IMG/VR virus record: IMGVR_UViG_3300047491_000839
Coordinates: 1-20,816 of that record
Reading direction: 5' to 3' (one strand)
DNA length: 20,816 nt
Source of the DNA: a virus
Below the pieces are notes generated by a model. The model ran no database searches, was not told the origin of the DNA, and saw nothing but the letters and a program-made list of their open reading frames with translations. Both the position numbers and the translations under genes were made by a program. Position 1 is the stretch's first letter. Each line of letters starts with the position of its first letter. Shown piece after piece: positions 1,680 through 20,816 of this stretch.

Positions 1680-3761
1680 ATGGCCGGTGCAAATTCAAAT
1701 ATCCAAATGACTGATTTGGATTTTAACACAATCAAAAACAACCTGAAGACTTATCTAAAATCTCAGGATGTATTGAAAGATTATAACTTTGAAGGTTCTG
1801 CTCTTTCCACTTTATTGGATGTTTTGGCGTACAACACGCAATATAATGCATTCTATTTAAATCAAGTTGCAAATGAAATGTTTTTAGATACTGCATTGCA
1901 ACGCGATTCGGTTGTTTCACAAGCAAAACTATTAAACTACGTACCACAATCCGCAAGAGCACCACAAGCCACCATTAATTTGACGGTGCACCAAGTTTCT
2001 GACACCTCCCTTACAATACCAAAGTTTACATCGTTTCTGTCAGAAGCAATCGATGGTGTGAATTACAATTTCGTTACTGTCGATTCAACCACAGTCGGTG
2101 TCGTGGCAAATACAGCGACCTTTACTAATTTGGAAATCAAACAAGGTCAACCTGCAACTATTTCTTTTCCGGTTGATTCGATTCAAAATCCAAAATATCT
2201 TTTCGAACTGCCGCAACCAAACGTAGATACTAGCACAATCAAAGTTGTTGTACAAGAATCATCGTCGAACGGCAGTACTACAACTTATACTCAGGCATCC
2301 AATTATCTGACATTAGATAGTAGTTCTACTGTTTATTTCTTGCAAGAAGGTATCGGTGGCCTGTTCCAGATTTATTTTGGTGATGATGTTTTGGGTAAAA
2401 AACTAAAAGATGGTAACATTGTTATCGTTTCTTATGTTGTTACACAAGGAACTGCGGCCGCAGGAGCCAATAACTTTGTGTTGATGAATACTATTTCTGG
2501 TTATTCCAACACATCAGTCTCATCTACGATTGCAGCAACACAAGGTTCGGAAAAAGAATCTATTGAATCTATCAAATTCCAGGCACCAAAATCTTACTCG
2601 GCTCAAGGTCGTGCGGTTACCAAAGAAGATTATATCACCGCAATACAGCAAAATAAAGAGGGATATCCTATTGATGCAGTAAGTGTTTGGGGTGGAGAAC
2701 AGAATGATCCTCCAGTTTATGGCCAAGTGTTCATTGCTGTTAAACCAACTGGTGGTTATTTGTTAACCGACACACAGAAACAAAGATTGATTGAAGATGT
2801 TATCAAGCCAATCTCTGTTGTTACTGTCCAACCAACGATTGTTGATCCAGATTACACTTACTTGAAACTTACATCTAACGTGTTGTATGACACCAAAAAG
2901 ACTGTACGCACAGCACAACAGTTACAATCTGCGGTGAAAACTACAATCAGTAACTTCACATCAACGAATTTAAATTCATTCAATTCCACGTTTGATAGTT
3001 CGGACTTGAATTACTCTATTCGCACGACAGATTTATCGATAGTGGCCAATGAAACCACCGTGCAAGTACAGAAAAAAATCATGCCGAATTTCACAACACC
3101 CACAACATATAAGTTGTATTTTGGTACTGAGTTGAAAAAAGGAATGTTCCAAAGTGGCATTTCAAGTTACCCGGCTTTACAATTTAGAAATCCTCTGAAT
3201 GCAGCATTAACAATAGACGGCATTTACATCGAAGAGCTTCCTGTATCGACAGGCGGCATACAATCCATAATGTTGACCAATCCAGGATTTGGTTATCAAA
3301 TTGCACCAACAGTAAAAATATTGGGAGACGGAACAGGCGCAACTGCTGAAGCTGTTTTAAACACTGACGGAAGTATACAAGAAATTAAAGTAACAAATAA
3401 GGGCAGTAGTTATACGAGTGCGCTTGTAACCATTACACCAGCAGACAATGATACTACTGGCCAATTGGGTGCAGCTGTCGCAAGTCTAGAAGGACAATAC
3501 GGAACACTTAGATTATACTATAATGATAACAACAATGTCAAGACCATTTTTAATAATAATATCGGCACAGTAGACTACACCAACGGAATTATTACACTGA
3601 ATGATTTTGGACCTTTGGGTGTTAATGATCCATTAGGACAATTAACAATCACGGCAAATCCTGTATCTACTATTATATCTTCCTCATACAATAGAGTTGT
3701 TACTGTAGATGAATATGATTCGGCTGCTGTCACGGTTAATGTTACTGCCAAAACGTCATGA
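1680..3761 (+). CDS. 6: T4 gp6-like baseplate wedge protein (baseplate J family)
   Basis: 693 residues, close to T4 gp6 (660). The N-terminal part has the typical gp6 segment at about residues 40-85 (LSTLLDVLAYNTQYNAFYLN, then ANEMFLDTALQRDS and KLLNYVP). The middle carries the baseplate-J hallmark near residues 304-335 (GRAVTKEDYITAIQ...). gp6 dimers form the ring of the inner baseplate that contracts or expands during tail sheath triggering. At residues 524-587 there is a GxGY beta module (NPGFGYQIAPTVKILGDGTG...) not expected in T4 gp6, repeated in other proteins of this window. The start follows the gp25 stop by 1 bp. The stop overlaps the next start as ATGA (3758-3761), which implies coupled translation. 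Confidence 0.9.
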   Translation: MAGANSNIQMTDLDFNTIKNNLKTYLKSQDVLKDYNFEGSALSTLLDVLAYNTQYNAFYLNQVANEMFLDTALQRDSVVSQAKLLNYVPQSARAPQATINLTVHQVSDTSLTIPKFTSFLSEAIDGVNYNFVTVDSTTVGVVANTATFTNLEIKQGQPATISFPVDSIQNPKYLFELPQPNVDTSTIKVVVQESSSNGSTTTYTQASNYLTLDSSSTVYFLQEGIGGLFQIYFGDDVLGKKLKDGNIVIVSYVVTQGTAAAGANNFVLMNTISGYSNTSVSSTIAATQGSEKESIESIKFQAPKSYSAQGRAVTKEDYITAIQQNKEGYPIDAVSVWGGEQNDPPVYGQVFIAVKPTGGYLLTDTQKQRLIEDVIKPISVVTVQPTIVDPDYTYLKLTSNVLYDTKKTVRTAQQLQSAVKTTISNFTSTNLNSFNSTFDSSDLNYSIRTTDLSIVANETTVQVQKKIMPNFTTPTTYKLYFGTELKKGMFQSGISSYPALQFRNPLNAALTIDGIYIEELPVSTGGIQSIMLTNPGFGYQIAPTVKILGDGTGATAEAVLNTDGSIQEIKVTNKGSSYTSALVTITPADNDTTGQLGAAVASLEGQYGTLRLYYNDNNNVKTIFNNNIGTVDYTNGIITLNDFGPLGVNDPLGQLTITANPVSTIISSSYNRVVTVDEYDSAAVTVNVTAKTS

Positions 3762-5464
3762 TATCAAGTAGTCAAAAGACATCACTCTTAGTACCATCAC
3801 AACTTCCTGAATTTATTCGGGACAATCCTGACTATTCCAATTTCGTTTTATTTCTAAAGGCATACTACGAATGGATGGAACAGAACGGTCAAGTTACAGA
3901 TAGAGCTAAGAATTTATTAAACTATAAAGATGTTGATCAAACTACGAATGAATTCATTGATTATTTTACAAATGATTTTCTGCCGTACTTTCCAAAAGAT
4001 ATACTGATAGACGAATCTAAGGCCGTAAAATTAGCCCGTCAACTATATCAAACCAAAGGCACACCCGGTTCATACGAATTTTTATTTAAAGTTTTATACA
4101 ACTCAGACTTCGATATCTTTTATACCAAAGATGCCGTATTGAGAGCATCAGATGGTATTTGGTACATATCAAAAAGTTTAAAATTAAATTCAACCAACAA
4201 ACAATTCTTAAATACCAAAAATTTAAGAATCTTTGGTGAGACGACCAAATCAATCGCTACAATTGAAAATGCGGTCGTTGCGAAAAACAAAATAGAAATT
4301 TTTATATCTAACATCGAACGTCTGTTTCAATCTGGTGAATTCGTTCGTGTTGTAGATAATAAAAACCAAGACGTACTTTTTAATGGTCAAGTACTACGTG
4401 CCAAGATTGTTGGACAAATCAGTCAGATCAATGTTAAGCCAACTAATCGAGGTTTGTCCTATGCTGTTGGTGATCCTGTTATTGTGTATGGTGGATTATC
4501 TTCAAACACAGGAATAGGAGCTATCGCTGAGGTTGGTGAAGTAACTACAGGTTCAGTAAGAAAAGTTACAGTTCTGACAGGCGGTCAAGGTTACTCTTCA
4601 TCGAATAACATACCAGCAAATACACAGTTCGAATTTACCGTATTTGATCCTGATGCGAAAAAACCGATCGCGATTGTAGGTTCTTTGGATCCAAATGCTG
4701 CAAATTCCAGAACAGTAAGCTTACTTTCTTCTGATACGATAGGGCTTAAAAAAGATATTCCTATTGGAAATACATACTACTATTTTGCTGCAAATTTAAA
4801 TGCAAATATATCTTGTACACTTGCTAATGCATTATCATTCACATCGTTCACAACCTACCCATTAAATTCTGTTGTTGTTACAAATGGAGGTGGCGGTATC
4901 ACTACGATGCCGACACTAGAAGCTCGTTCACTTTATCCAACCGACACTTTGGGTGGTTCAAATCTAAAGAATTTAGGTATTCTTGGAAAAATTAAAGTTA
5001 TAAATGGTGGCCGAGGATATGTCGCAAACGATACGATTGTGTTTACTGGAGGTTCTGGATACGGTGCGGCCGCCAGAGTTAGTTCCGTAAATGCTTCAGG
5101 TGGTATTATAAATGTATCATTCTATGCGGCAAATACTAACTTTCCAATCGGTGGAATGGGTTATAGACCAGAATGGATGCCTGGTGTTTCTGTAAATTCT
5201 GCAAACGCAAATGCAACTGGCGCCATCTTGGCCACTACAGGAATACTTGGTGACGGCGCAACATTTGACATGGTATTGGATCGCGCAGGATCAATTACAA
5301 AAATCAATATCGTCGATGGTGGTGAGGACTATATCGCAACACCAAATGTTTCGATTCGCATTCAGGATATATTGGTAACTAATGTATCGATCTCATCTCT
5401 ACCACAAAAAGATGACCTTGTATACCAAGGAAACACCATCAACACTTCAATCTATAGAGCCTAG
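3758..5464 (+). CDS. large baseplate/structural protein in gp7 position, N-terminal part up to an in-frame TAG
   Basis: ATG overlaps the gp6 stop (ATGA). The 568 residues up to TAG (5462-5464) begin with a conserved-looking helical domain (LPEFIRDNPDYSNFVLFLKA, then YYEWMEQNG and FIDYFTNDFLPYFP, about residues 16-85, and GTPGSYEFLFKVLYNSDFDI near 104-123). I recall this type from large structural proteins of marine T4-like phages. From about residue 216 onward come several GGxGY beta modules (GGQGYSS, GGRGYVA, GGEDYIA). The gene lies between gp6 and gp8, as T4 gene 7 does, and reading through the TAG gives 948 codons, near T4 gp7 (1032). I do not claim sequence homology to gp7. The conventional product stops mid-domain at SIYRA, so this alone is probably incomplete. 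Confidence 0.8.
   Translation: MISSSQKTSLLVPSQLPEFIRDNPDYSNFVLFLKAYYEWMEQNGQVTDRAKNLLNYKDVDQTTNEFIDYFTNDFLPYFPKDILIDESKAVKLARQLYQTKGTPGSYEFLFKVLYNSDFDIFYTKDAVLRASDGIWYISKSLKLNSTNKQFLNTKNLRIFGETTKSIATIENAVVAKNKIEIFISNIERLFQSGEFVRVVDNKNQDVLFNGQVLRAKIVGQISQINVKPTNRGLSYAVGDPVIVYGGLSSNTGIGAIAEVGEVTTGSVRKVTVLTGGQGYSSSNNIPANTQFEFTVFDPDAKKPIAIVGSLDPNAANSRTVSLLSSDTIGLKKDIPIGNTYYYFAANLNANISCTLANALSFTSFTTYPLNSVVVTNGGGGITTMPTLEARSLYPTDTLGGSNLKNLGILGKIKVINGGRGYVANDTIVFTGGSGYGAAARVSSVNASGGIINVSFYAANTNFPIGGMGYRPEWMPGVSVNSANANATGAILATTGILGDGATFDMVLDRAGSITKINIVDGGEDYIATPNVSIRIQDILVTNVSISSLPQKDDLVYQGNTINTSIYRA
5462..5464 (+). other. single in-frame amber codon (TAG) inside the gp7-position protein
   Basis: The frame that starts at 3758 meets TAG at 5462 and then stays open in the same frame (TDSVELLVQDADPTKSLYKF...) to TAA at 6602-6604. 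All 11 other stop codons visible here are TAA (9) or TGA (2), counting the TAA that ends this frame. There is no good ribosome binding site or ATG for an independent downstream start. Possible explanations are a nonsense variant, a sequencing error, suppressor-tRNA readthrough, or a regulated extension. Confidence 0.85.
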
Positions 5465-5479
5465 ACCGACTCGGTTGAA

Positions 5480-6604
5480 TTGTTGGTTCAAGATGCCGAT
5501 CCAACCAAATCTTTGTATAAATTCCGTGTATACAACTACAACGCAAAACCAAATCCAAATTATGAAATAAAAATTTTGGATAAGAATATCAATTTTGTTA
5601 TGGCGAATACGGCATGGAAACCATCAGGTTATACCAAATCGGTATATGACAAGACTGGCGTGAGAAAATATGGTGATGGTACCGCAAAGGCTACCGCATC
5701 ATTCTTGAATGGTCTGGTCTTAGGTCAAGGACAATACTTGAATTCTCAAGGAAGATTGTCGTCTTTCTCGAAATTGGAAAGTGAAGATTATAATAACTAC
5801 ACCTATCAAATCACTGTACAAAAAGAAATAGAAAAGTACAGAGATGTATTATTAAATCTGTTGCATCCAACCGGCATGAAAGTTATTGGTCGTTACGGCA
5901 ACTTGGATGAAAAACAATACGACTATCATGCATTAACAGCCCTAAAAACTGGAAGAAATTTATATTCATATACTGGTACAGCAGCATCAGCTGTTCAGGT
6001 ATACGCAGATTGGACAAATAAGAGCAACAACATTCTGAAGTTTACCAATTTGAGTGGTGCGAATGTTGCAAATATTATTTTTGCAAATACTATCATTTCA
6101 TTGAACACATTAACTGGTCCAGATATTCTTGGCGATGTTGTGTCGATTGATGCATCAAATAATCAAGTCACCATCACGAATAATGTATGGTTGACATTTA
6201 TGAACGTTGCCTATATCAGTGCAAATGCCGGTTCAAATGTCATAAATATTAAAACTGTTACGAACACCTATGATATGGTGAACAATGGTAATTATAGCAA
6301 CACTGCATATCCTATGATGGATGTTGTGTTTGCTGGTGATAATATTAAGATAGGCAGTGTATATAAGACAGTAGATTATGTTGATATTGCACACAACAAG
6401 ATTTATGTCGCAAACAATTTTGCAGCAAACATATCAAACTCACTCATGTCGGTCAATCGCGTACTCACAGCGGGTGGCCAACTATCCAGACAAGATGAAA
6501 TTATAATTTATGGACCTGTAGGTATACAATATGTACCTCAACTGACAACAGAAGCGGGAGACCTATTGACAACCGAAGACGGAAGAATTCTAATATTGGG
6601 GTAA
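5480..6604 (+). CDS. C-terminal part of the gp7-position structural protein, after the in-frame TAG
   Basis: Same reading frame as the upstream 3758-5464 gene. Coding sense begins directly after the TAG (5465), and 5480 is only the first TTG in frame. No Shine-Dalgarno-like sequence precedes that TTG, so independent initiation is unlikely. The segment holds YNYNAKPNPNYEIKI, then GYTKSVYDKTGVRKYGDGTA, a helical YQITVQKEIEKYRDVLLNLL followed by HPTGMKVIGRYG (about residues 112-146 of this part), and a beta-rich C-terminus ending TTEAGDLLTTEDGRILILG. The LLHPTGMKVIG segment resembles the late part of large structural proteins in related phages, which I recall as continuous with the upstream domain. 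The next gene begins 3 bp after the TAA. I read it as one protein with the upstream part. Confidence 0.7.
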   Translation: MLVQDADPTKSLYKFRVYNYNAKPNPNYEIKILDKNINFVMANTAWKPSGYTKSVYDKTGVRKYGDGTAKATASFLNGLVLGQGQYLNSQGRLSSFSKLESEDYNNYTYQITVQKEIEKYRDVLLNLLHPTGMKVIGRYGNLDEKQYDYHALTALKTGRNLYSYTGTAASAVQVYADWTNKSNNILKFTNLSGANVANIIFANTIISLNTLTGPDILGDVVSIDASNNQVTITNNVWLTFMNVAYISANAGSNVINIKTVTNTYDMVNNGNYSNTAYPMMDVVFAGDNIKIGSVYKTVDYVDIAHNKIYVANNFAANISNSLMSVNRVLTAGGQLSRQDEIIIYGPVGIQYVPQLTTEAGDLLTTEDGRILILG

Positions 6605-6607
6605 AAA

Positions 6608-7753
6608 ATGTCCACAGTAAAAATTTCTGAATTACCAGCAATTACACACCTGAATAGTAATACAGCCAATACACTTATTGTTGGTGTGGATATTCCTACG
6701 GGTGTAACGGGTAAAATTAGTGCAACTGTAATAGCAGAAAGTTTGTATTCAAACAATGCACTGAATGTGGGCAACAACGATATTGTTTTCCCTGGTGTTG
6801 TTGGCCAATTTGTCAGCAACAATGAGAACTATTTACAAGTTAATCTACAGAATTTAAATGGCAATGGTTCATCAGACTATGTTGCAACCGCTGATGTTGG
6901 AACTGACAGTGTTTATTATATCGATTTAGGTTTTTCTGGTTCGGATTACGACAATCTTTCTCCAAACAATTCTCTCGGAACATCACTCTATCCTTTAGAC
7001 GAATATGTATATGTACAAGGAAATACTGGACATCCAGGTGGAAACCTTGTGATTGGTACCACAGTAACAGGTACACAAATTAAATTTATTGTTGGTGGTG
7101 TAGATTCTCAGAACGTTGTTGCGACAGTCAATACTACAGGACTTTATTCTGCAACCATTTCTAATTCATCCACTTATGCCAATGGTGCATTTAGACAAGC
7201 CAATTCATCATATAATTCACAGAATACGACCGGAACATATGCGAATTCGGCATACACACAAGCAAACAGTTCTTTCTCTAAAGCTAATGCTTCGTTTGGT
7301 GTTGCAAATACTGCCCTTCAAAACACAACAGTAGTTGTTGTAAATGGATTGAACGCAACGAATTCTGTTATTGGAAACACATCGATCAATAACGGCGTAT
7401 CAATTAGTGGTGGTGGATTGTTTCAATATACTTCCGCAAACAATTCAACCGTTACACAAGCGACAAGTAAATCTACCGGGGTGACATGCAATGGTAGAAC
7501 AGGTCAAATTACCACAAATAATGCTGCTTTAGCTGGTGGTAGATCGGTTACGTTTACTGTTACTAATAATCAAATCGTTTCAAACAAAGATGTGGTCATA
7601 GTAAATATTGCATCCGGTGCGACTATCGATACATATCAGGTTGGAGCAACCGCAGTGACACCGGGTTCATTTAATATTACAGTGTCAAACGTGAGTTCAA
7701 CATCCCAATCAGATGCTCTCGTAATTAATTTTGCAATCATCCGTGTTCAATAA
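6608..7753 (+). CDS. fibre-like virion protein with N-terminal KISELPA motif
   Basis: 381 residues, starting 3 bp after the previous stop, with GGGG at 6598-6601 as a possible ribosome binding site. The N-terminus (MSTVKISELPAITHL) is of the K-I-S-E/Q-L-P-A type seen at the head of many phage fibre or minor tail proteins and probably anchors it to the baseplate. A heptad-like Ala/Asn repeat follows near residues 191-238 (GAFRQANSSYN, SAYTQANSSFSKANASF), consistent with a trimeric stalk. The last about 100 residues (TQATSKSTGVTCNGRTGQIT ... VVIVNIASGATIDTYQVGA ... VINFAIIRVQ) match a beta domain that I recall at the C-terminus of assorted phage tail proteins. It sits between the gp7-position gene and gp8, so it may be a short fibre on the wedge. 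The exact role is unknown. Confidence 0.72.
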   Translation: MSTVKISELPAITHLNSNTANTLIVGVDIPTGVTGKISATVIAESLYSNNALNVGNNDIVFPGVVGQFVSNNENYLQVNLQNLNGNGSSDYVATADVGTDSVYYIDLGFSGSDYDNLSPNNSLGTSLYPLDEYVYVQGNTGHPGGNLVIGTTVTGTQIKFIVGGVDSQNVVATVNTTGLYSATISNSSTYANGAFRQANSSYNSQNTTGTYANSAYTQANSSFSKANASFGVANTALQNTTVVVVNGLNATNSVIGNTSINNGVSISGGGLFQYTSANNSTVTQATSKSTGVTCNGRTGQITTNNAALAGGRSVTFTVTNNQIVSNKDVVIVNIASGATIDTYQVGATAVTPGSFNITVSNVSSTSQSDALVINFAIIRVQ

Positions 7754-7763
7754 TAAATAAATC

Positions 7764-9170
7764 ATGGCTAATAAATCTCTTCTCACATATAACGCTCAAG
7801 TATCAGCAGTCGAACAGGCATATTTTTATCCTTCGGCTGTTTTACCATATGCAACCAGCATTAATTTGGGAACACTATATTGTTTCCTAGCTAGCACTTT
7901 GCCGTGGGAAGATGATAATGATCCTCCTGTCCCAACACAAGATCAAAAATACATCAAACAAGTATTCAAAAATATCTTTGCGACGAAAAGAATTACTTCC
8001 GGCGATATCTCTCCAGTGATCCAGCGTGTGAACTGGACAACGGGAACAACATACGATTATTATCAAGATGATGTTGATATGATGGCCAGAGATACCAATG
8101 GTTATTTGTACAAAAATTTCTATGTAAAAAATCGTTACGACCAGGTTTTCAAATGTCTTTGGAACAATAACGATAATCCAGCCACAGACGAACCGTACTT
8201 TGAACCTGGAACTTACGGTACCAATAACATTTATGCCGGCACCGATAGTTACAAATGGAAATATATGTACACTATCGACACAGGTTTGAAAGTTAAGTTT
8301 ATGGATGCCGAGTGGATGCCCATACCTATTGGTTCCAACACTCCCAATCCTGAAGTAACTACTGCTGGTGCAGGAAGTATTGATGTGATTAATGTTTTGG
8401 ATGGCGGTTCAGGTTACGATGCGAATCTTTCCGTAATTAAAGTTACAATTACTGGTGACGGAACAAACGCGGAAGCTTCATTGTCATCCACACAAATCGT
8501 TGGTGGATCTATTCAAGACATTACCATTACAAGTCCGGGCAAAAACTATACATATGCCAACGTAACAATTACCGGAACAGCAGCCAACGGTGCTTCTATG
8601 GGTTCTGGTGCTGTTGCGATTGCACCTACATCTCCTGTTGGTGGCCACGGTTTTGATCCAGTATCTGAATTGGGTTGTGCCCATGTTATGTTCTCTGTTG
8701 AATTTATTCGTGATGAAGATGGAAAAATTCCAACCGACAACAACTATTATCAAGTTGGATTATTGGTCAACCCAACCACGAAACAACATCCAACCATCCC
8801 AGCCAACAGTTCGGTGTATAGAACAACCACAGATATGATTGTTTCTCCTGGATTCGGAACATATTCTGATGATGAATATGTATTCCAAGTTGCAACACCC
8901 GGTGATTCTATTGACAATGCATTATTTAAAGCTACAGTATTAAGTTTTAATACATCAACCAATTCGGTAAAACTGATAAATATGGTGGGCACTCCAATAA
9001 TTAATGCCTCCTTGTACGGTAACTCGTCAGGAACAACAAGAACATTACTATCTGTAGATTCTCCAACATACTCCTTATTATCTGGTTACATGACATACAT
9101 CGAAAACAGAAGTGGAGTCGAAAGAAGTCCGGATGGTATCGAACAATATAAGTTTGTATTAGGTTACTAA
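7764..9170 (+). CDS. 8: T4 gp8-like baseplate wedge subunit
   Basis: Several landmarks line up with T4 gp8 in order: LPW at residues 46-48 (T4 has EPW), VIQRVNW at 86-92 (VIPRRDW), YDQVFKCLW at 126-134 (the VYRCL region), DSYKWKYMYTI at 162-172 (DGYVWEYLFEI), and a C-terminal GYMTYIENRSG (GEMIYMENRPP) followed by a hydrophobic end. gp8 dimers are part of the baseplate wedge, bound to gp7 and gp6. Here the protein has 468 residues against 334 in T4. Much of the excess is a GGSGY beta module at about residues 203-289 that falls between the conserved halves. The start lies 10 bp after the preceding stop in an AATAAATAAATC leader without a clear ribosome binding site. Confidence 0.82.
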   Translation: MANKSLLTYNAQVSAVEQAYFYPSAVLPYATSINLGTLYCFLASTLPWEDDNDPPVPTQDQKYIKQVFKNIFATKRITSGDISPVIQRVNWTTGTTYDYYQDDVDMMARDTNGYLYKNFYVKNRYDQVFKCLWNNNDNPATDEPYFEPGTYGTNNIYAGTDSYKWKYMYTIDTGLKVKFMDAEWMPIPIGSNTPNPEVTTAGAGSIDVINVLDGGSGYDANLSVIKVTITGDGTNAEASLSSTQIVGGSIQDITITSPGKNYTYANVTITGTAANGASMGSGAVAIAPTSPVGGHGFDPVSELGCAHVMFSVEFIRDEDGKIPTDNNYYQVGLLVNPTTKQHPTIPANSSVYRTTTDMIVSPGFGTYSDDEYVFQVATPGDSIDNALFKATVLSFNTSTNSVKLINMVGTPIINASLYGNSSGTTRTLLSVDSPTYSLLSGYMTYIENRSGVERSPDGIEQYKFVLGY

Positions 9171-15632: not shown

Positions 15633-15863
15633 ATGGCTATCGTACAAATTCCAGGCACAAATCTTTATAGAGATACTACCTCTATGGCCCTACTCAATAA
15701 AGATAAAACTGGTTTGGAAGACTACAGAATGAAGAGAAGAATGTTGGAAACCCAGGCACAAGAAATAAATAGGGTTAAATCCGAAATTAATGGCATCAAA
15801 GATGAACTAAAAGAAATAAAATCCATGATGCTTAGACTAATCGACAAGGTTTCAAATGGCTAA
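15633..15863 (+). CDS. small coiled-coil phage protein (76 aa)
   Basis: ATG at 15633, 2 bp after the previous stop. The N-terminal half (MAIVQIPGTNLYRDTTSMAL) resembles short proteins that I recall beside tail-fibre genes in marine T4-like phages. The C-terminal half is a charged amphipathic helix with heptad hydrophobics (INRVKSEINGIKDELKEIKS, then MMLRLIDKV), a likely coiled coil. Its stop overlaps the next start (ATGGCTAA, 15856-15863), so it is translationally coupled to the long fibre gene. It may help the fibre trimerise or attach, but that is an inference from position and coiled-coil character. Confidence 0.8.
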   Translation: MAIVQIPGTNLYRDTTSMALLNKDKTGLEDYRMKRRMLETQAQEINRVKSEINGIKDELKEIKSMMLRLIDKVSNG

Positions 15864-18800: not shown

Positions 18801-19014
18801 TAATATTGCTACAAAAATTGGTAGTTCGGGATGTATTATTTTGAAACAAGATGCAACTGGTGGTAGATCATTCACAAAGGCTTCAGAAATGAAAACACCT
18901 TTGGGTGGTGCAGCTATCACACAATATACAGCTGCAAATTCTATATCCGTTATTAACTATTATGTTGTTGATGCTTCTACAGTTCTAATTAATTACATCG
19001 GTAACTTTGCATGA
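15856..19014 (+). CDS. long repeat-built tail fibre protein (1052 aa)
   Basis: The start overlaps the preceding gene by 8 bp. The N-terminus (YANTFSDWYVVTNALSQENN, then YTKDSGTLYLSE) is of a type that I associate with fibre proteins of marine T4-like phages and probably binds the baseplate. Residues 185 to about 744 are Val/Thr/Ala/Asn repeats of 37 residues (core QANTSVTTGTVTANTLV), grouped early on as exact 74-residue pairs; this predicts a long trimeric beta shaft. The C-terminal about 200 residues form a different domain (YINVDRTQSPGASNASIRWN, then KYWDI; TLNLALFDNFIITLNQNVTF; GCIILKQDATGGRSFTKASE), resembling fibre tips of many phages and likely the host-binding end. No chaperone or peptidase motif is visible. 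The stop overlaps the next start as ATGA (19011-19014). Confidence 0.82.
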   Translation: MANTVPILSYANTFSDWYVVTNALSQENNILGKADYTKDSGTLYLSETTQNSLQSNGNIVVQKQLLVQGLGSSATVQNNLTVGGQVYFTNTTLSLVASGQANVSGPIYALAPNTGLIVANNATIGSNLTTIGSGVFASNVSVASWFAVNSNSRFVGPVVASQSVSTANLIADAISSTGIATVDKVQANSSVTTGIVNANTVVNTANVVAGVLSSGPATVSTLQANTTVLAATITANTLITSPNVIATEISGTNITVNAVQANTSVTTGTVTANTLVNTANLVAGVLSSGPATVSTLQANTTVLAATITANTLLTSPNVIATEISGTNITVNAVQANTSITTGTVTANTLVNAANVIAGVLSSGAATVSTLQANTSLLAATITANTSVSAPNVIATAISGTAVTVSTVQANTSVTTGTVTANTLVSAPNVIAGVLSSGGTATVNALQANSSIQTGTFVANTSVLTGTVTANTLVSSPNVIAGVLSSGGTATVNALQANTSVLANSITANVSFSAPTITATTLVSAPNVIATAISGTAVTVSTVQANTSVTTGTVTANTLVSAPNVIATAISGTTIIANTITANSTLNVTGSVLTENVTVLNITSSNNRSNIGAGSTSVAKAILNVIGTASVSNLSYANVTVSSNISTVSITGSNSGTLTVSSSITSANIIGTSAISSGGTATVNNLQANVSVLTGTVTANTSVSAPNIIGTSAISSAGTATVDKLQANTSILTGTIAANTSLTVPIVTAATGVTSSNFFGSNTIFMSGSTQVDNAISVNIVTANTSKANGNYSRASMNIAGPLTAGNTSLAALNITANLASIVVSNGTSSLTMTPTSMTGASVDASLKSLTTTGPVQVGGNFIISGTTLYAPNTFTLSSGAIANSNNYINVDRTQSPGASNASIRWNETDKYWDIKNVSTNTYTKIVVDQDPSTSITLQGYLRANGIVSTQGTITPAATTTLNLALFDNFIITLNQNVTFALSNIATKIGSSGCIILKQDATGGRSFTKASEMKTPLGGAAITQYTAANSISVINYYVVDASTVLINYIGNFA
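16408..17073 (+). repeat. three in-phase 222-bp repeats in the tail fibre gene
   Basis: Copies begin at 16408, 16630 and 16852, each at a VQAN(S/T)S(V/I)TTG segment, and a further unit head lies at 17074. Each 222-bp unit is two 37-residue half-units: one contains (V/I)AGVLSSG(P/A)ATVST, the other VIATEISGTNITVNA or a close variant. Protein identity between copies is very high, with many synonymous base differences. Less regular copies continue to about 18090. Confidence 0.85.
17146..17345 (+). repeat. 53-bp exact direct repeat, 147 bp apart, in the tail fibre gene
   Basis: Bases 17146-17198 and 17293-17345 are identical and encode AGVLSSGGTATVNALQA plus flanking residues. The offset of 147 bp is 49 codons, so the frame is kept. 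Exact identity amid otherwise diverged repeats suggests recent duplication or gene conversion. Confidence 0.8.
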
Positions 19015-20816
19015 GCGGTTTTGGTTTCTTTGGTGTGTACGATTGGAGTACAGATGTAACCACATCTAGAACAACCACGACCACATGGAACACAAGTCAG
19101 TCTACAACTACTACTTGGTCGACCAGTAAATCAACTAGCCAATCTACCACAACTACCTGGACAACTAGTCGTTCAACTTCTAGTAGTTGGAACACCAGTA
19201 GATCAACAAGCCAATCGACAACTACTAGTTGGAACACCAGTCAATCTACCAGTCAATCTACCACAACTACATGGTCAACTAGCAAATCGACTAGCCAATC
19301 CACAACTACTACCTGGAATAGTGTGTGGACAACTACATGGTCTACCAGTCAATCTACTAGTCGTTCTACTACAACTACATGGTCCACAAGTCAATCAACA
19401 AGTCAAAGTACCACAACATCATGGATTACAGCGTGGAATACAAGTCAAAGTACAACAACTACTTGGACTAGTGTTTGGACAACAACCTGGTCAACTAGTC
19501 AATCAACATCACAAAGTACAACAACTACTTGGTCAACTAGCAGAAGTACAAGTCAATCCACAACAACCACCTGGACAACCAGCTGGTACACAAGTCAATC
19601 CACATCCACAAGTTGGATCAGTGTGTGGACAACGACATGGACCACAAGTTTAACTACTAGTCAATCAACCACCACTACGTGGACAACTTATTGGAACACA
19701 AGTCAATCTACAACTACTACATGGACAACCAGCTGGAACACTTCGCAAGCTACCACTACTACCTGGACTACCAGTTGGACCACAATAACGCAAGCTAACA
19801 CCAGTAAAAGTACTAGCCAAAGTACAACTACCACGTGGACAACCAGCTGGGACACAAGTCAATCAACGACAACAACCTGGACCACAACTTGGTCAACATC
19901 ATCATCTTGGACTACTACTTGGACCACCAGCCAAAGCACAACGACAACCTGGACCACTAGTTGGAATACAAGTCAATCCACAACAACAACTTGGACAACA
20001 AGTTGGAATACTCAACAAGTATTATTGACCGAACGTTTAACTTATTATGGAATAGATGAAGTTTTGACACAATGGGAAACTGTAGGTGTCTTGTCAACTT
20101 CTATATTAACATCACGATCAACAACAACTACATGGTCCACAAGTAGAAGTACCAGTCAATCCACAACTACTTCTTGGTCAACCAATAGAAGTACATCTTC
20201 GTCTTGGTCCACAAGTAGAAGTACCAGTCAATCCACAACTACTAGTTGGTCTACCAGTCAGTCCACCAGCCAAAGCACAACTACAACATGGACTACTACT
20301 TGGGTAACATCTTCAGCCTGGTCAACCAGTATAAGTACAAGCCGATCTACGACTACTACCTGGTCAACTAGCAAATCCACCAGCCAATCCACAACAACGA
20401 ACTGGACAACCAGTCAGTCAACCAACCAAACCACAACTACTTCTTGGACGACCAGTTGGAATACAGATCTAACAACAACAACAGCAGGATCAACTAGCCG
20501 AATCACAACAACGACCTGGACAACTAGCCAGTCCACCAGCCAAAGCACAACGACAACCTGGACTACCACGTGGAACACCAGCCAATCCACTACGACCACC
20601 TGGACCACAAGTTGGAATACTTCGCGTTCAACTTCGACAACTGCAACTACTAGCCAATCCACAACAACTACCTGGTTAACAAGTATTGCTACCTCACGTT
20701 CAACTACGACCACTTGGACAACCAGTTGGAGTACTAACCAATCCACAACGACCACCTGGACCACAAGTTGGAATACTTCGCGTTCAACTTCGACAACTGC
20801 AACTACTAGCCAATCC
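19011..20816 (+). CDS. Ser/Thr/Trp-rich repeat protein, 3' end beyond the window
   Basis: ATG at 19011 overlaps the fibre stop (ATGA). The frame has no stop for 602 codons to the window end, so the gene is 3'-truncated. A short unique head (MSGFGFFGVYDWSTDV) is followed by repeats of the form WSTSKSTSQSTTTTW. Sixty Trp are present; 58 of 59 successive Trp intervals are 4, 6, 10, 14 or 20. Lys, Arg or Gln mostly sit 4 and 8 residues after a Trp, on the same alternating face. Residues about 335-368 form a single non-repeat island (QQVLLTERLTYYGIDEVLTQ, then WETVGVLS). There is no signal peptide. Its place next to the tail fibre suggests a fibre, adhesin or decoration of the virion. The function is unknown, but the coding nature is firm because the open frame carries the amino-acid pattern throughout. 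Confidence 0.82.
   Translation, partial: MSGFGFFGVYDWSTDVTTSRTTTTTWNTSQSTTTTWSTSKSTSQSTTTTWTTSRSTSSSWNTSRSTSQSTTTSWNTSQSTSQSTTTTWSTSKSTSQSTTTTWNSVWTTTWSTSQSTSRSTTTTWSTSQSTSQSTTTSWITAWNTSQSTTTTWTSVWTTTWSTSQSTSQSTTTTWSTSRSTSQSTTTTWTTSWYTSQSTSTSWISVWTTTWTTSLTTSQSTTTTWTTYWNTSQSTTTTWTTSWNTSQATTTTWTTSWTTITQANTSKSTSQSTTTTWTTSWDTSQSTTTTWTTTWSTSSSWTTTWTTSQSTTTTWTTSWNTSQSTTTTWTTSWNTQQVLLTERLTYYGIDEVLTQWETVGVLSTSILTSRSTTTTWSTSRSTSQSTTTSWSTNRSTSSSWSTSRSTSQSTTTSWSTSQSTSQSTTTTWTTTWVTSSAWSTSISTSRSTTTTWSTSKSTSQSTTTNWTTSQSTNQTTTTSWTTSWNTDLTTTTAGSTSRITTTTWTTSQSTSQSTTTTWTTTWNTSQSTTTTWTTSWNTSRSTSTTATTSQSTTTTWLTSIATSRSTTTTWTTSWSTNQSTTTTWTTSWNTSRSTSTTATTSQS
19045..20816 (+). repeat. degenerate Thr/Ser-Trp minisatellite-like coding region
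   Basis: Units of 12, 18, 30, 42 or 60 bp, each ending in TGG, follow one another without strict tandem order. Thr and Ser positions use all available codons in mixed order, so DNA identity is much lower than protein identity. Local exact copies exist, for example 20133-20171 and 20205-20243 (39 bp, offset 72). Confidence 0.85.
20582..20816 (+). repeat. 79-bp near-perfect direct repeat ending exactly at the window end
   Basis: Bases 20582-20660 recur at 20738-20816 with one mismatch (20591 T against 20747 A), so 69 bp are identical to the last base. The offset is 156 bp (52 codons). The second copy ends precisely at the last base of the window. Confidence 0.85.

Follow-up and report, generated by a model that had tools for sequence, protein, structure and literature searches.

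A single in-frame TAG codon (positions 5462-5464, plus strand) interrupts a putative gp7-like baseplate wedge gene in the window analysed here, a 20,816-base IMG/VR record, and we consider it very probable that this codon is a sporadic single-codon lesion of one metagenomic contig. Two origins would fit: a nonsense mutation that arose recently and is present in the sequenced phage population, or a consensus base error. In all relatives examined the gene is a normal gp7-like baseplate wedge gene contained in one ORF. The window TAG is not evidence of recoding, and it serves as a caution that a single interior stop in one metagenomic contig, in a gene that is unbroken in every relative, does not amount to such evidence.

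As described in the initial annotation, one TAG divides an otherwise open frame of 948 codons (TAG counted) at 3758-6604 on the plus strand, and it is the only internal stop of the gene. The upstream part (3758-5461) comprises 568 codons from an ATG at 3758, the TAG is codon 569, and the downstream part (5465-6604) comprises 379 codons followed by a TAA at 6602-6604. The downstream part has no credible start of its own, which also agrees with the earlier description. In a start codon scan, the earliest possible restart after the TAG was a TTG at 5480 and the earliest in-frame ATG lay at 5600, and a convincing Shine-Dalgarno motif was absent at both, as it is at several real starts in the window, that at 3758 included. 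The frame is not a chance one, since in each of the two closest relatives (G002 and G003) one continuous gene matches both halves, at 78-86% identity. Identity of the upstream part to the single gene of G003, G002 and a third relative, G001, is 86, 82 and 67%, respectively, and that of the downstream part to the same gene of G002, G003 and G001 is 84, 78 and 72%.

Profile comparisons place the frame in a wedge-subunit family. Upstream of the TAG, the frame hits the baseplate wedge subunit family phrog_17744 at E = 1.6e-42 and phrog_26741 at E = 6.1e-32; the downstream part matches phrog_26741 at profile positions 375-432, further along the same profile than the upstream part. Of 23 aligned family members, 15 have a PF23786 hit at E <= 0.001, the two scores inspected (26.9 and 20.7) lying below the curated cut-off of 27 bits. 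Uncultured T4-like phages have gp7-like wedge genes (phrog_17744, phrog_26741) of the same family, and the 896-aa ORF Melnitz3EXVC039M_161 of the cultured Methylophilales phage Melnitz-3 belongs to it as well; the window gene shares with these relatives a position after two baseplate wedge genes, and both of its halves match one ORF. In the window, a small baseplate wedge gene (1286-1678) precedes a gp6-type gene (1680-3761), which matches gp6 of 9f4a (E = 6.6e-47) and 5hx2 (E = 2.3e-43) and directly precedes the frame. A location between gp6 and gp8 had been proposed; the gp6-type gene is indeed upstream, but direct adjacency to a gp8 does not hold, as one gene (6608-7753) intervenes before a gene starting at 7764 that matches the phrog_438 baseplate wedge profile.

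The likeness to T4-type gp7 (PDB 9f4a; 5hx2/5iv5) consists of one short alignment and weak local fold matches, and does not extend over the full length. The sole sequence alignment to solved gp7 pairs profile positions 94-120 with gp7 733-759 (27 positions, E = 0.0006). This conserved stretch is N-terminal in the window protein and C-terminal in T4-type gp7, and the remainder is unaligned by sequence. A fold search returned local matches to chains of 1,004-1,031 residues from T4-type baseplates, which we take to be gp7 (probability 0.97-1.00, TM-scores about 0.1); these are weak because the underlying model, of the closest homologue (L002), is poor overall (mean pLDDT 63.6, pTM 0.34). The product of 3758-6604 is therefore a gp7-like wedge protein with a layout differing from that of T4 gp7, and the nearness of the read-through length to that of T4 gp7, to which the initial annotation had pointed, is coincidental.

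We evaluated the TAG position in relatives from two scans of viral contigs, which gave 90 loci, three of them repeating a contig, and so 87 distinct contigs. The site is spanned in 82 of these; in the other five, which were not counted, the contig ends before the frame does, after 412-589 codons. An unbroken gene is present in every relative checkable at the site, and the TAG occurs in the window only. Examination of the homologous residue, a check that had been suggested earlier, revealed a sense codon in 82 of 82 contigs (T in 29, Y in 27, R and I in 7 each, K and L in 3 each, and F, S and V in 2 each), with F and Y in the two closest relatives. Homologues naturally split at the TAG, which had been put forward as grounds for taking the TAG as an ordinary stop, were not found (0 of 82). 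The closest relatives carry one gene of 948-949 aa. In 70 relative loci the end of the frame is contained; none of these frames ends near residue 568, and all measure 715-1150 aa except that of L081 (72 aa). No same-species contig was recovered with a 23-base pattern across the site in viral_contigs, a set from which near-identical records may be omitted. In GTDB genomes 38 stretches match a pattern, none of them a relative, and the 'phages' set gave no match in a DNA search or in a protein search with the downstream half. For the 767-aa homologue of Cr30, the profile comparison aligned only the first ~290 columns and is uninformative on the site.

The downstream part is still under purifying selection. 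Against G002 and G003, dN/dS for the window was 0.054 and 0.039 upstream and 0.075 and 0.115 downstream, rough values given that synonymous sites are near saturation; the downstream values are in line with those of intact pairs (0.080-0.126). Private nonsynonymous:synonymous changes in the downstream part number 28:43 in the window and 35:56 in the intact G003 (Fisher P = 1.0), an equality of ratio that argues against long decay. The nonsynonymous share in the window is larger downstream than upstream (28:43 and 28:92, respectively; P = 0.02), a point against a sporadic lesion, though the same contrast is stronger in the intact G003 (P = 1e-5). Downstream constraint and an ordinary private-change ratio point to a TAG that is either young or read through, and to a gene that is not an old pseudogene. 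Alignment column 569 varies in residue but has no gap in any of the 21 aligned relatives; S572, three columns after the TAG, is identical in all 21, Y566, A568 and D571 close by are mostly conserved, and near-invariant columns persist downstream up to about residue 900. The C-terminal end of the family is highly variable, with totals of 715 to 1150 residues, and the part up to about residue 700 is kept. In the L002 model, the TAG position falls within a predicted beta strand (566-577) in a block with pLDDT 80-85. Such a strand-interior site, with no domain border, would be unlike the expected dividing point of a two-form protein.

A genuine TAG without suppression would leave a 568-residue fragment with about 40% of the protein missing and the cut within a folded domain, and this fragment should block or impair baseplate assembly. 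This counts against a lesion, as a lethal mutation should not reach the population consensus and such lesions are rare. To gauge that rarity we scanned for lone stops flanked by 40 aligned columns on each side with at least 16 of 40 identical. Across 88 sequences (the window and its relatives) and 237,883 covered codons, the window TAG was the only plus-strand case; 73 minus-strand events, each with one supporting query, were set aside as presumed antisense shadow frames, the loci having been turned to place the gp7-like gene on the plus strand. The scan speaks against interior stops being tolerated across the clade, and the rarity of lone stops is a mild point against a chance lesion; the window, however, was chosen for having one. 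The main matches of every other window gene in G001, G002 and G003 were also without interior stops, bar a single stop in the G001 match to a small gene (15633-15863). In favour of a lesion, isolated disruptions of the frame are seen in this gene in two relatives as well. L061 (6001-8766) carries a 134-bp out-of-frame deletion relative to its sister L058, to which it is 99.8-100% identical, and this is either an assembly artefact or a real deletion, while in L081 a one-base insertion causes an early frameshift that leaves 72 aa.

Wholesale reassignment of TAG had been judged unlikely from the outset, and the data uphold that judgement. Like code 15 phages (TAG = glutamine), the window has a structural gene with a TAG in frame. 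Those phages, however, carry such codons across numerous genes, in one case in 41 ORFs (PMC10607447), whereas the window has one TAG and its relatives none. Code 15 was rejected, as it would require many in-frame TAGs spread over the genes. A CTA suppressor tRNA is encoded by 375 of 715 code 15 phages (PMC11210395). Decoding of this one TAG by a phage or host amber suppressor tRNA, or misreading of UAG by a natural tRNA, would yield the full 948-residue protein and would account for the constrained downstream part; large tRNA sets do occur in relatives, and the window is a fragment, such that the phage's own tRNA genes, if any, lie outside view. We nevertheless regard it as very unlikely, and the suppressor proposed earlier gained no positive support. 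ARAGORN, applied to the full G001 contig and to the tRNA clusters of six further relatives, detected 156 tRNAs, not one of which has a CTA anticodon, and no lone interior TAG occurs elsewhere in the window or in the plus-strand frames of relatives. TAG also still serves as a gene stop in G001, G002 and G003, terminating 16 of 278 crude ORFs (7/155, 2/65 and 7/58, respectively). G002 and G003, partial genomes that were read whole, gave no tRNA at all in ARAGORN, and the window, as a fragment of a phage genome, contained no tRNA and no Rfam family. The lack of TAG among the 11 other visible gene stops (nine TAA and two TGA) had been offered as weak evidence for a suppressor; weak it is, because relatives seldom end genes with TAG and its absence is expected (P about 0.52, computed from the 16/278 share in crude ORF calls of three relatives). 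It is very unlikely that the TAG is real, stable in the lineage and usefully read through by a suppressor or misreading tRNA, which would make an essential wedge gene dependent on amber suppression and restrict its expression to suited hosts. If true, the window would offer a rare instance of suppression at one codon of an essential structural gene.

Phage Q-beta makes a readthrough form of its coat protein. Programmed or leaky readthrough of the window TAG, likewise giving short and long forms of a wedge protein as the initial annotation had envisaged, would fit a frame that stays open and constrained after the TAG, but we find it highly improbable: the TAG is common to 0 of 82 relatives, the break would interrupt a strand within a predicted domain, and the RNA context is ordinary. 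Four RNA stretches of the window, covering the site or lying immediately downstream, were no more stably folded than most of their shuffles (z -0.6 to -1.2), and one stretch from each of three relatives gave z 0.2 to 1.9. Least probable of all is a genuine gene split with the downstream half translated from its own start. The TTG and the ATG that it could use are in frame; no ATG is near the TAG, however, the start signals are weak, the relatives are unsplit and the same predicted strand would be cut. Among the options listed initially, a nonsense variant or base error is therefore the one we favour, leaky or regulated readthrough and suppression being without positive support.

Further observations concern the translation apparatus of the relatives and the end of the window. 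G001 (IMGVR_UViG_3300042924_006566, a 156.6-kb contig with 22 tRNAs) encodes a permuted tmRNA of betaproteobacterial type with the tag ANDEKFALAA (L126:8437-8796, minus strand; 136 bits to RF01850 and 138 bits to RF04321), a type that hints at a betaproteobacterial host. Clusters of 17-28 tRNAs, several covering most amino acids, are present in the distant relatives L139, L140, L141, L142 and L122. The frame at 19011-20816 of the window shows strong strand skew (GC skew -0.25 and AT skew 0.28 over 19001-20000) and hits relatives many times over with self-similar matches, like a repetitive protein of tail-fibre type.
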